Positions 2,932 to 44,743 of a stretch of DNA of 64,000 bases are shown here, piece after piece (the stretch's first letter is position 1; each line of letters begins with the position of its first letter). The notes beneath the pieces were generated by a model, which made no database searches, was not told the origin of the DNA, and saw only the letters and a list, made by a program, of their open reading frames with translations. The stretch comes from Micromonospora chaiyaphumensis (GTDB lineage Bacteria > Actinomycetota > Actinomycetes > Mycobacteriales > Micromonosporaceae): the NCBI RefSeq assembly GCF_900091435.1, contig NZ_FMCS01000007.1:186001-250000 (forward strand), written 5' to 3'. Made by a program: the position numbers and the translations under genes.

Positions 2932-3501
2932 TCAGAACGGAGACGGGTCGTCGCGCAGCCGGCTGTAGAGCCAGCCGTCGCGCCAGGCGCCGGCCCGGAA
3001 CTCGCAGGCGCGGACGACCCCTTCCAGTTGGAAGCCGGCCTTTTCCAGCGACCGCTGCTCGGCGACGTTCTCCGCGTGGGTGCCGGCCTGGATCCGCTGC
3101 GCCGGGGTGTGCGCGAAGAGGTAGTCGCAGAGCAGCGCCTGGGCCCGCCAGCCGATGCCGCGGCCGCGCCACTCGGGCAGCAGGGCGATGCCGATCTCCC
3201 AGTAGGGAGCGCGTCCGCCGTAGATGCCCCACTGGTAGCTCACGAGCCCGGCTGCGGCCTCCTCGGGCTCGACCTGGACGATGAGCCGGCCGTCCCGCTC
3301 GCCCAGGTAGCCGTCCTCGGCGTGCCGGCGGGCGGGCCCGCCCGGATCCCGAAAGCCGGCCCAGTCCAGCCCGATCAGGCCCGGCTCGGTGAGGAAGCGG
3401 CGGAACATGGCCAGGTCCGGCTCGGCCACCGGACGTAGCCGGATCGTGCCGCCGCCCGCCTCGTGCGCGATGCCCGCGAGCCTCGGTCCGGCCTCGTCCA
3501 T
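2932..3501 (-). CDS. GNAT-family N-acetyltransferase
   Basis: This 189-residue protein has the RimJ/RimL-like GNAT fold. It opens with a TIRLRPVAEPDLAMF beta-strand and helix. The acetyl-CoA pyrophosphate loop is LLPEWRGRGIG (about residues 107-117), and the typical ENVAEQRSLEKAGFQLEG segment follows. The acceptor substrate cannot be told. The frame stays open well upstream of 3501, but only the part from this ATG resembles the family; ATG 3543 (14 codons longer) is possible. It converges on the ligase gene with a 10-bp gap. Confidence 0.82.
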   Translation of the reverse strand: MDEAGPRLAGIAHEAGGGTIRLRPVAEPDLAMFRRFLTEPGLIGLDWAGFRDPGGPARRHAEDGYLGERDGRLIVQVEPEEAAAGLVSYQWGIYGGRAPYWEIGIALLPEWRGRGIGWRAQALLCDYLFAHTPAQRIQAGTHAENVAEQRSLEKAGFQLEGVVRACEFRAGAWRDGWLYSRLRDDPSPF

Positions 3502-34849: not shown

Positions 34850-35284
34850 ATGAGCGTGGACGGGTTCTTCGAGGTCCGCTGGTGGTGGAGAGCGACGGCT
34901 CCAGGTCGGGGCGCGGCGTCAGACGCGCCGAGCTGGAGTCGTCGCAGGGCGGTCCGCGTGGCGGTCTCCGATCGTACGGCGCTTCCGGCGGCCCGCCGCG
35001 CGGTGGCGCGCCGCCTGGCCGGGCTGCGCACGGTCGACCTGGAGCTGGCGCGGGCGCACCGGGCCGCCGGCCGGCCGGTGCCGGTGGGTCCACTCCTGCG
35101 CGACCTGGTGGCGGTGTCGCTGGGCGCGGCCGAGGCGACCGGCGGGCTCGTGGACCCGACGGTCGGTGCGGCCCGGCTGCGCCGGTCGGTGATCCCCTTC
35201 CCCAGCCGGCTACCCGGTGGTAACTTGCCGGCATGTCCATCGACGGTCGTCCCGCCGGCCGGCTGGCCGGCAAGGTGGTGCTGA
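34850..35284 (+). pseudogene. ApbE-like (FAD:protein FMN transferase) remnant
   Basis: The open frame begins MSVDGFFEVRWWW. Residues about 38-110 (AVRVAVSDRTALPAARRAV and AGRPVPVGPLLRDLVAVSLG, then ATGGLVDPTVGAA) resemble the N-terminal third of ApbE flavin transferases. The family's middle SRFRPDSEL block is missing, and everything after the DPTVG point (~200 residues) is absent and replaced by unrelated sequence. A 54-bp palindromic repeat (34892-34945) interrupts the N-terminus. I read it as a decayed gene, not a working enzyme. Confidence 0.6.
34892..34945. repeat. 54-bp imperfect-palindrome dispersed repeat, copy A
   Basis: This 54-bp block matches 43867-43920 at 51 of 54 positions and does not match beyond those limits. 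It is itself an inverted repeat: the outer 18-nt arms match at 16 positions, and GCGTCAGACGC forms the centre. It lies inside the ApbE remnant. Confidence 0.8.
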
Positions 35285-41687: not shown

Positions 41688-42737
41688 TCACCGTTCCGGC
41701 ACGGCGGACAGCCCGCCGACCAGCGCACGGGCCCGGTCGAGGAACCGCCCGGCCCGGGGGAAGTCGTGCAGCCGCTGTCCATAGTGGTCGAGGGTGAGGG
41801 CGACCGCGCCGGCCGGGACCCGGCGGCTCACGAGGATCGCCACCAGCCACTCGACGAACTCGGTGAAGAGGGTCTCGTCGTCGACGTAGAGGGCGGCGGC
41901 GAGGAAGTCGACGATGTAGCCGAGGTCGCTGACGGTCGAGTCGAGCTGCGCCGGGGTGTAGTGGCGCACCCCGGGCACCCGCTCCCGCAGGTCGGCCAGG
42001 GCGCTGTCGATCAGCTCACCGCGCCGCTTGGCCAGGCTCGCGTACTCGTCGTCGGCGAGGTGGTCGAGCCGGGCGGGCGGCACCGCGCGCAGTGCCCGCT
42101 CGTCGGCGACCAGGTCGGCGGCGGTCGGCGCGTCCGGCGCCCAGGGCACGCCGAGCACCCGGGCCCAGCGGCCGTCGCCACCGAAGCCGCGCCCACCCAC
42201 CACCACCGGCACGTCGGAGCGCCGGCACGCCTCGATCATGCGGTGCGCGTGGGGCAGCCGCATCGGCAGCGCGCAGGCGAGGGCGACCGCGTGCGCGTCG
42301 TACCGGTGCAGGTAGGACACCAGGTGGGCGGCGGGCACGCTCGCCCCGAGGAAGGTGATCTGCCAGCCGCGCAGCCGCAGGACCTCGGCCACCAGCCGGG
42401 CGGGCAGCGCGTGCCACTCGCCGTCCATGCAGGCGACCACGATCCGGCCGCGGGTGGGGCGGGGATCGGCGTACGCTGCCACGGCCGCCACCACCCGCTC
42501 GCTGATGTGGGTGGCGGCGTGCTCCTGGGCCACGCTCCACTCGTCGCGCGCCCACCGCTCCCCCACCTCGGCCTGGGCCGGGGCGACCAGATCGAGCAGC
42601 ACCCGCTCGGCCGGCACGCCGGACTCCAGCAGCCCGCGGGCCACCTCGACGGCGGCGTGCTCGTCGGCCTCGGCGAGGCACTCCAGGTAGCCGGGGAAGG
42701 CCTGGGCCGGGTGGGCCTCGGTGGTCGTGGCGGTCAC
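41688..42737 (-). CDS. cobalamin-binding protein with CarH-type light-sensor signature
   Basis: This 349-residue protein has a four-helix cap domain (residues about 15-90) and a B12-binding Rossmann domain (95-215). The cap carries W62-x9-E72-H73 (WARDEWSVAQEH), the Wx9EH signature of CarH-type photoreceptors that bind adenosylcobalamin. The Rossmann domain has E107-x-H109 (DGEWHALP), where the His would be the lower axial ligand. It lacks the MerR DNA-binding domain of CarH; instead a C-terminal helical domain (about 245-345) of unknown role is attached. GTG 42737 overlaps the phosphatase stop by 4 bp. It may pass a light or B12 signal to the phosphatase or STAS partner. Confidence 0.85.
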   Translation of the reverse strand: MTATTTEAHPAQAFPGYLECLAEADEHAAVEVARGLLESGVPAERVLLDLVAPAQAEVGERWARDEWSVAQEHAATHISERVVAAVAAYADPRPTRGRIVVACMDGEWHALPARLVAEVLRLRGWQITFLGASVPAAHLVSYLHRYDAHAVALACALPMRLPHAHRMIEACRRSDVPVVVGGRGFGGDGRWARVLGVPWAPDAPTAADLVADERALRAVPPARLDHLADDEYASLAKRRGELIDSALADLRERVPGVRHYTPAQLDSTVSDLGYIVDFLAAALYVDDETLFTEFVEWLVAILVSRRVPAGAVALTLDHYGQRLHDFPRAGRFLDRARALVGGLSAVPER

Positions 42738-44536
42738 GCGTCGGTCTCCCTCGTTCGGTCGGTGCCGACCGGCCCGGGCACCGCGTGCAGGTGGCGGCCC
42801 GGGCGGCCCGGGGTCGTCGCCCGCAACGCGAGCACCGCGATGTCGTCGTGGTCGCCGTGGCCGAGCCAGTCGCAGGTCACCTGCTCGACCCGCTCGGCCA
42901 GCGCCGGGGCCGGCATCCGGTGGCAGCCGGTCACCGCGTGCAGCAGCCGCTCGGCGCCGAACTGCTCCTCGCCCCGCCGGCCGCCGCGCGCCTCGGTCAC
43001 CCCGTCGCTGTAGAGCAGGCAGGTCTCACCCGGGGCCAGGTGCACGGTGACCTCGCCGATCCGGGGATCCGGCACCACGCCGATCAGCATCCCGCTCAGC
43101 GGCACGACCTCCACCTCGCCGGAGGCCAGCAGCACCAGGGGCGGGAGGTGACCGCCGCCGGCCATGGTCAGGGTGAGCCCGCCGTCGCGGTGGGGGCGCA
43201 CCACGCCCAGCACCATGGTGGCGAACCGGCCCTGCCCGTGCGCCTGGGTGGTTTCCAGCAACGCGTCGTTGAGCAGCTTCAGCAGCCGCGCCGGCTGCGA
43301 CTCGACCCGGTGCAGCGCGTGCAGGCACTGGCGGAGCTGGCCGGTGAACACGGCCGCCTCCACGCCCTTGCCCGAGACGTCGCCGAGGAAGAAGACCGAG
43401 CCGCCGTCGACGAGCCGGTGCGAGCCGTAGAAGTCGCCGCCGATCCGCAGCCCGGCCTGCGCCGGCCGGTAGGCGGTGCCCCACTGCACGCCCTGGGCCG
43501 CCGCCGGCTCGACGGGCAGGAGACTCGCCTGGAGGGTGTCGGCCACCTCGGCCTGGTCGCGGTAGAGCAGGGCGGTGGTGAGCGCGGCGCCGGCCCGGGC
43601 AGCGAAGGCGCGGACCAGGTCGAGGTCGGCCTCGTCGTGCCAGCGGCCGGCCCGGCGGGCGACCAGCAGCACCCCGGCCGGGGCCTCCCGGCCGGGCAGC
43701 GGCACCACCCGGGCGGTGGCGCCGGCCTCGTCGAGCCCGGGCAGCCAGCCCGCCTCGACGGCCTGCTCGACCAGCCAGTCCAGGGCGTGCGGCTCGGCGC
43801 CGCCGAGCCCCTCCTCGATCGCCGACGGCAGCGCCGCGGCGGCGAGCACGCCGCTGTCCACGGCCGGCGACGGCTCCAGGTCGCGGCGCGGCGTCAGACG
43901 CGCCGAGCTGAAGTTGTCGCCCGCATCGTCGTCCGCGCGCACCGCCCGCCACCACCGGGCCCGGCCGGAGCGCGGGGCCAGCACCAGCACGGCGACGTCG
44001 GCCACGGTCGGCACGGCCAGCCGGACCACCGCGGCGGCGGCGCGGTCGGGATGCAGGGGGTTGCCGAGCTTCTCGCCGACCACGGCGAGGAACGCCGAGC
44101 GGGCCCGCTCGGCGAGCAGCGCGTCGGCGCGGCTGACGCTCTCGGTGACGTCCTCGACGTACCAGCAGCGACGACCGGCGGAGAGCGGGACCCGGCGCAG
44201 CCGCAGTCGCCGGCCGTGATGGGTGAACTCGCCCGGGTCGTCGCCACCGAGCGCGGCAACGCCCGCCGCGGCGAGGACCTCGCCGGGCACCACCTCGGGG
44301 ACCAGCCGCTCGGCCACCGGGCTGAGATGCCGCACCACCCCGTCGGCGTCGCAGACGATCAGACCCTCGCGGAAGTGCTCCACCACCTCCGACCAGCCGG
44401 GGGTGGCCGGGCCGCGGTCCGGGGCCAGGGGCGGCAGCGCCGGCTCGGGCGGGGACCACGCCCGAGCCCGTTGGGCACCCGGCGTGGAGATCCGTCCGTC
44501 GCCCGGGTCAGCACCCCTGACGTCGGCAGCAGTCAC
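42734..44536 (-). CDS. PAS-GAF-PP2C (SpoIIE-type) phosphatase
   Basis: This ~600-residue phosphatase has a PAS domain (EGLIVCDADGVVRHLSPVAE), a GAF domain in the middle and a C-terminal SpoIIE/PP2C domain. All metal-binding aspartates are present (IGGDFYGSH, FLGDVSGKG, YSDGVTEA, DDIAVLAL). It should dephosphorylate STAS anti-anti-sigma factors in response to its sensor domains or the B12 protein. There is no RsbW-type kinase domain. An in-frame 54-bp repeat (43867-43920) inserts FSSARLTPRRDLEPSP into the GAF region. I start at GTG 44536; TTG 44596 extends it 20 residues. It overlaps the B12 gene by 4 bp. Confidence 0.88.
   Translation of the reverse strand: MTAADVRGADPGDGRISTPGAQRARAWSPPEPALPPLAPDRGPATPGWSEVVEHFREGLIVCDADGVVRHLSPVAERLVPEVVPGEVLAAAGVAALGGDDPGEFTHHGRRLRLRRVPLSAGRRCWYVEDVTESVSRADALLAERARSAFLAVVGEKLGNPLHPDRAAAAVVRLAVPTVADVAVLVLAPRSGRARWWRAVRADDDAGDNFSSARLTPRRDLEPSPAVDSGVLAAAALPSAIEEGLGGAEPHALDWLVEQAVEAGWLPGLDEAGATARVVPLPGREAPAGVLLVARRAGRWHDEADLDLVRAFAARAGAALTTALLYRDQAEVADTLQASLLPVEPAAAQGVQWGTAYRPAQAGLRIGGDFYGSHRLVDGGSVFFLGDVSGKGVEAAVFTGQLRQCLHALHRVESQPARLLKLLNDALLETTQAHGQGRFATMVLGVVRPHRDGGLTLTMAGGGHLPPLVLLASGEVEVVPLSGMLIGVVPDPRIGEVTVHLAPGETCLLYSDGVTEARGGRRGEEQFGAERLLHAVTGCHRMPAPALAERVEQVTCDWLGHGDHDDIAVLALRATTPGRPGRHLHAVPGPVGTDRTRETDA
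43867..43920. repeat. 54-bp dispersed repeat, copy B, inside the PP2C gene
   Basis: This copy matches 34892-34945 at 51 of 54 positions. Because 54 is a multiple of three and one strand has no stop, it adds 18 codons to the GAF domain without breaking the phosphatase frame. The flanks share no target duplication that I can be sure of. Confidence 0.8.
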
Positions 44537-44743
44537 CAGCTGAGCCCCACTCCTTGTCGATACCCGCGGTCCACCGGCAGCGGCGCGTATGGTCAAATCT
44601 CTCCGCCCACCCTACGCCGGTGTACCGGTACCGCCACCTCACGGCCGACGGCCCGGCCTGCGGACGCGCCACCCGGCAGGCCCGTACCGGGCTTGTTACG
44701 ATCCGGGAACGACCCGGCCCGGCCGGCAGCGCGGAGAGGCGTG

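Follow-up and report, generated by a model that had tools for sequence, protein, structure and literature searches.

Short palindromic elements inserted in frame in protein-coding genes of Micromonosporaceae

Palindromic elements that dwell inside proteins are known above all in Rickettsia and Wolbachia, which are obligate intracellular bacteria. The Rickettsia palindromic elements (RPEs) were reportedly described by Ogata in 2000 and 2002, and the Wolbachia palindromic elements are said to date from 2005; we know of no mobiliser for RPEs. RPEs are short palindromes of about 105–150 bp, inserted in frame into numerous conserved genes that are unrelated to one another, where they contribute a tolerated peptide (PMC10969869, PMC2229807), and a 2024 review calls protein evolution of this kind in other prokaryotes "conceivable" (PMC10969869). 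The REPs tagged with GTAG or CGTC are, according to Di Nocera 2013 (PMC3733652), small palindromes of 20–40 bp with stems of 5–13 bp that include G-T wobble, some of them intragenic and coding; those with CGTC are without a known transposase, and the text of that paper makes no mention of Micromonospora, Salinispora or 'actinobac'. MITEs such as ERIC and NEMIS/Correia are non-autonomous, have terminal inverted repeats and form some ORF fusions (PMC2229807), and the single-stranded intermediate of IS200/IS605 and the REPtron predicts a strand-specific constraint on hairpins (PMC8266576).

Here we describe a repeat family, element A, that has features of all of these systems. By its function it appears most like the RPEs, beside which we set it by description and without claiming kinship: it is a dispersed palindrome with conserved pairing, found in frame in unrelated genes for which empty sites exist. 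It differs from RPEs in belonging to another phylum with another base composition, in being 54 bp long, in occupying four reading frames in both orientations, in forming tandem arrays that keep the frame, and in having a nested, composite form. Unlike the tagged REPs it lacks a GTAG tag, and CGTC is not conserved at its right end; in contrast to MITEs, its signal of target-site duplication is not robust, and no parent IS turned up among the four solitary arms that we fetched. Our search of the open literature on Micromonospora palindromic or miniature inverted-repeat elements, with subscription papers outside its scope, found no paper on element A, judging by titles and abstract openings. The occurrence of the same habit in free-living, GC-rich and largely culturable actinobacteria would open to testing what mobilises such elements and how much random peptide insertion is tolerated by essential enzymes.

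Two copies of element A in the window

The stretch of DNA that we analysed (the window) comprises 64,000 nucleotides of the Micromonospora chaiyaphumensis genome (C2:186001-250000 in the assembly G000, which has 6.74 Mb in 22 contigs). It contains two copies of element A, both on the forward strand: copy A at 34892..34945, made up of a 52-bp core (34893-34944) and one variable base on each side, and copy B at 43867..43920 (core 43868-43919). They differ at 3 of 54 bases, and the first-pass annotation, which had reported them as a dispersed 54-bp pair with 51/54 identity, was right on this point. A scan of the window with a consensus pattern allowing up to three mismatches found these two copies only (100 shuffles gave 0), and they were also the sole convincing matches to a covariance model, the next-best place in the window having an E-value of 0.012.

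The ORF that hosts copy A, an ApbE-like remnant on the forward strand (34850..35284; ORF list, Pfam, and alignment to a homologue with an empty site), has the element close to its beginning and stays open across it; in the host frame the element reads ATAPGRGAASDAPSWSRR. Pfam gave no match to the remnant itself; the sole empty homologue of the site that we found, in genome G052 (L241), is an intact ApbE gene (Pfam E-value 1.5e-19). This copy is below the threshold of the coding classifier used below, and its in-frame assignment comes from comparison with the ApbE homologue, from which the window gene differs by a net 51 bp at the insertion. Compared with G052, the window gene has also suffered an internal deletion that begins about 240 bp past the element and removed most of its later part. 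Since this ruinous deletion lies further downstream and the reading frame continues unbroken across the element, we conclude that the element did not cause the break in ApbE, which had been suggested as a possibility; the idea that it marks the break is likewise unsupported. The deletion junction is at 35180-35240, with an SDR-like remnant from about 35234.

Copy B is inside a gene on the reverse strand (42734..44596) for a 620-residue protein with a SpoIIE phosphatase domain (Pfam), whose frame is open through the element; the translation on that strand is GDNFSSARLTPRRDLEPS. All 29 aligned relatives are without the element, with a gap of 54 bp in 28 of them and 51 bp in the other (L146), so the empty sites that the first-pass annotation proposed to look for do exist in relatives. 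By these alignments, copies A and B are both in-frame insertions inside genes. The earlier description did not include that copy B also sits in frame within a gene, nor that element A inserts in this way regularly.

Hairpin structure and distribution across genomes

The core of element A is a 52-bp hairpin, in which an outer helix of 12 bp encloses a short, bulged inner helix and a loop, and the net length that the element adds is usually 54 bp (18 codons) or, at some sites, 51 bp. The bases immediately flanking the core are variable, with preferences for G at −2 (34/62) and A at +2 (37/62) in a de-duplicated set of 62 sites from which tandem, orthologous and low-scoring copies were removed. 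Folded as DNA, copy A has an energy of −24.4 kcal/mol (z −6.25), which bears out the palindromic unit seen at first pass, and for both window copies the written strand folds more stably as DNA than its complement. In an alignment of 21 copies, both sides of a stem pair had changed in 12 cells, compared to 4.0 in shuffles (0/500 shuffles reached 12), and the covariation score was above all 500 shuffles; the number of pairs with a both-side change was four, which is not exceptional (reached in 88/500 shuffles). The 20 stem pairs of 75 non-redundant cores give 1,500 cells, of which 1354 are Watson-Crick, 115 G-T, 8 A-C and 23 other. One pair, 6:47, is G-T in most copies, and without it the count is 52 G-T to 8 A-C. 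Part of the G-T wobble excess is inherited. This bias of G-T over A-C indicates that the written strand is the single strand under constraint. One identical core is common to six non-orthologous sites.

A 2-bp target-site duplication was considered and rejected as a firm feature: 17 of 65 sites resemble 2-bp repeats (5.0 expected), but the signal is not robust once tandem and orthologous sites are removed (P = 0.057 and 0.32 for two positions in the 62 de-duplicated sites). Window copy A and the hemY insertions described below have a net length of 51 bp, so the junction with the target is not clean at every site.

The covariance model, which we built from 21 copies, located 31 places on many contigs of the M. 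chaiyaphumensis genome at E < 1e-6 (BLAST gave 30 matches), as foreseen by the suggestion that the two window copies implied many more genome-wide. Of the 61 Micromonospora genomes that we drew, 57 contain from 1 to about 60 matches each (E ≤ 0.001). At E ≤ 1e-5 there are 31 matches in the copy-rich genome G022 and 27 in the likewise copy-rich G052. A computed replication-strand bias was discarded for lack of origins, since a dnaA was recognised at base 1 in neither chromosome. Named genome contigs were also scanned with an exact pattern, possibly with own-genome records excluded, and gave 33 stretches, all from Micromonospora. We rejected the restriction to this genus that the scan implied, because the model search finds other genera: of 200 genomes drawn from the Micromonosporaceae, 44 match at E ≤ 1e-6; 31 of them belong to Micromonospora and 13 to seven other genera (G080, among these 13, is one of the 28 genomes scored). 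Element A is patchy between close relatives and across these seven other genera. Of 12 tandem arrays, 11 have a 54-bp period and one a period of 53 bp.

Insertion sites, reading frames and host proteins

To place copies relative to genes, we called coding frames by codon usage, with a classifier trained on 109 long ORFs and applied to elements that score above 45 and have 120 bp of flank in the fetched DNA. This gave 155 sites with 170 copies, in 102 non-orthologous clusters; the classified loci are good matches or those among the matches listed, and not an exhaustive census. Thirty-three clusters are in frame on both sides, 44 have one coding side, 16 have none, 7 have coding on the same strand but in a different frame, and 2 have it on two strands. 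On inspection one of the 33 (L060, called in the stop frame) is a gene junction, which leaves 32. Random 54-bp windows from the same loci were in frame in 1824 of 3000 cases (61%), compared to 33/102 for the elements, so the in-frame share is about half of the random one, which means that insertion into genes is avoided or purged by roughly a factor of two, with about a third of sites still inside genes. Most copies adjoin gene ends or lie outside clear coding sequence. In the in-frame clusters, L060 included, the element points with the host gene in 16 and against it in 17, and of the 44 one-sided sites, 24 are beside the 3' end of a gene and 20 beside the 5' end.

The 32 clusters use frames +1 (13), −1 (9), −0 (7) and +2 (3), with none in +0 or −2. 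Frame −2 contains stops in 57 of the 102 cores and each of the remaining five frames in 1–11 cores. The absence of frame −2 fits selection against stops; frame +0 is open yet unused, and selection against stops does not account for that. Since the element adds a whole number of codons, genes that carry it keep a working frame. At L060 (positions ~1504-1555) the element copy seems to provide the stop codon of the gene preceding a UppS-like gene, and at L009 a Guanidine-III riboswitch match (RF01763, 46.8 bits) lies near an element copy, at 3179-3244.

Of the host ORFs of the 33 in-frame clusters, we searched 30 with Pfam (threshold 1e-5) and found a family for 24. The hosts include uroporphyrinogen decarboxylase (HemE), PdxT (SNO) and the RsgA GTPase; a flavin amine oxidoreductase adjoining hemE, identified as HemY by position and family; an L-aspartate-oxidase-like flavoprotein (NadB), a class I/II aminotransferase (HisC-like) and a class I tRNA synthetase (ValS-like); and formamidopyrimidine-DNA glycosylase, acyl-CoA dehydrogenase, Lhr helicase, FtsK and an FGGY kinase. 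We take the names HemY, NadB, HisC and ValS to be the right ones for these hosts, and genes of this kind to be essential. In G080, which belongs to another genus, a Memo gene carries two tandem in-frame copies. RsgA has been hit more than once, because its inserts are at different positions and in different frames in different genomes.

Comparison of filled and empty sites shows how exact the insertions can be. PdxT and NadB proteins with the element are exactly 18 residues longer than their empty relatives, whose flanks are 95–96% alike in the closest case, and two hemY loci have a net gain of 51 bp. The HisC-like gene has one copy in three relatives and three tandem in-frame copies in M. chaiyaphumensis (L013, G000:C5:128687-128848), the triple copy adding 54 residues as a coding minisatellite built of a mobile element. 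In hemE the insert occupies one and the same codon in 6 of 30 loci. In a tree built from 28 flank sequences of 28 genomes, the filled state of hemE requires 5 changes, at least 3 of them forced by supported branches, and the filled locus L122 and the empty locus L120 are sisters (support 100/99). Such a pattern could result from precise loss, from repeated gain or from alleles exchanged between species.

We presume that the peptide, of about 18 residues, is translated and close to neutral. In the hemE element, pN/pS is 0.50, compared to 0.09 and 0.21 in its flanks (summed over pairs of five species), so constraint on the element is weaker than on the flanks but present, and here the element is not wholly neutral. 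A structure prediction for HemE had a mean pLDDT of 62.6, with values below 50 across residues 229-297, and is too uncertain to place the insert; a phmmer alignment shows only that the insert lies against a gap in UroD 2inf, which we take to be the B. subtilis enzyme. For annotation, the warning is that odd insertions of 18 residues in these proteins are mobile DNA and not domains.

Mobilisation, competing explanations and a second palindrome

We consider it likely that element A is a non-autonomous, palindromic mobile family of Micromonosporaceae that moves as a hairpin of single-stranded DNA, by means of an enzyme acting in trans other than a resident RAYT, and whose in-frame loops are tolerated. 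The element would fold as a single strand of one fixed polarity and be recognised in that form by the mobilising enzyme. Insertions that keep the frame would survive, the loop of about 18 residues being tolerated, and those that place the stop-bearing frame in a gene would be purged. The strand-specific pairing suggests mobilisation as single-stranded DNA and, together with the presence of both orientations relative to genes, points to recognition during movement rather than to a role in host mRNA.

A REP-type element moved by a RAYT/TnpA (Y1 HUH) transposase would also have dispersed copies, strand-specific wobble in its hairpin and no robust target duplication, and TnpA-REP acts on only one of the strands of REP hairpins (PMC8266576). 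We nonetheless think that this is unlikely. The Y1_Tnp family (PF01797) has matches at 18 places in 5 of the 10 genomes searched, but none in the copy-rich genomes G022 and G052, and its lone match in the M. chaiyaphumensis genome has an internal stop (L074, G000:C12:400782-401081, with TAG inside). The covariance model found no element A across eight Y1 loci (L070-L077, 8 of the 18 places), the tetranucleotide GTAG is absent beside the stem in the flanks of the 62 de-duplicated sites, and the 52-bp core compares with 20–40 bp for REPs (PMC3733652). The REP/MITE-like shape that had been attributed to the repeat holds as far as it is dispersed, palindromic, mobile-looking and present in many copies; the link to RAYT is not supported by these searches.

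Selection for an RNA-level regulatory hairpin in transcripts (a terminator, attenuator or RNase III site) would suit the covariation and the G-T preference, if the RNA were that of the written strand, as well as the 44 of 102 clusters that lie beside one gene end. It seems improbable in view of the even division of orientations, the element strand being the mRNA strand in 16 in-frame sites and its opposite in 17, and of the one-sided sites (24 at 3' versus 20 at 5' ends); Rfam had no match to the element in L009 or L063. A known RNA family for element A was rejected after Rfam searches of four loci. We give very little weight to the idea that the insert never reaches the protein, either through splicing of the RNA or because the ribosome skips it, as with the hop elements of yeast mitochondria. 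Strong hairpins within conserved genes would agree with it, but open frames and multiples of three would then be unneeded, yet the intragenic sites that we inspected never use the stop-bearing frame, and the inserts are of 54 or 51 bp or, for the composite described below, 109 bp plus two. Finally, although the window has just two copies, the idea that they are a pair made by chance, or by local duplication or recombination only, is refuted by the 31 copies on many contigs of the same genome and by the matches in 57 of the 61 Micromonospora genomes.

We also fetched four solitary left arms of element A from G022 and G052, none of which belongs to a parent IS. One is a degenerate copy, one a chance-like match, and the other two are 109-bp composites, A[B] (L253:3202-3310 and L250:3284-3392), in which a different palindrome, B, is nested in the loop between the ends of element A. 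Palindrome B is about 57 bp long, occurs solo or nested, and has matches in 29 of 61 Micromonospora genomes. We read 29 B segments, of which 27 could be classified (the flanks of the other two were too short): plain B is in frame in 8/18 and the composite in 3/9, in a classing by pattern that scored some probable composites (L293, L297) as plain B. The composite of 109 bp plus two makes 111, a multiple of three. Both B and A[B] behave like element A. A broader reading, which we offer tentatively and regard as rather doubtful, is that actinobacteria harbour codon-quantised selfish DNA: two or more unrelated palindromes (A of 54 bp and B of ~57 bp) and a composite (111 bp), all multiples of three, that would move as single-stranded DNA hairpins of fixed polarity by a novel enzyme and be gained and lost at the same hemE codon. 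If so, they would be natural peptide-insertion mutagens of essential enzymes. One B insert is shared by three genomes, in a phosphoglycerate-kinase-like gene that we assume to be phosphoglycerate kinase.
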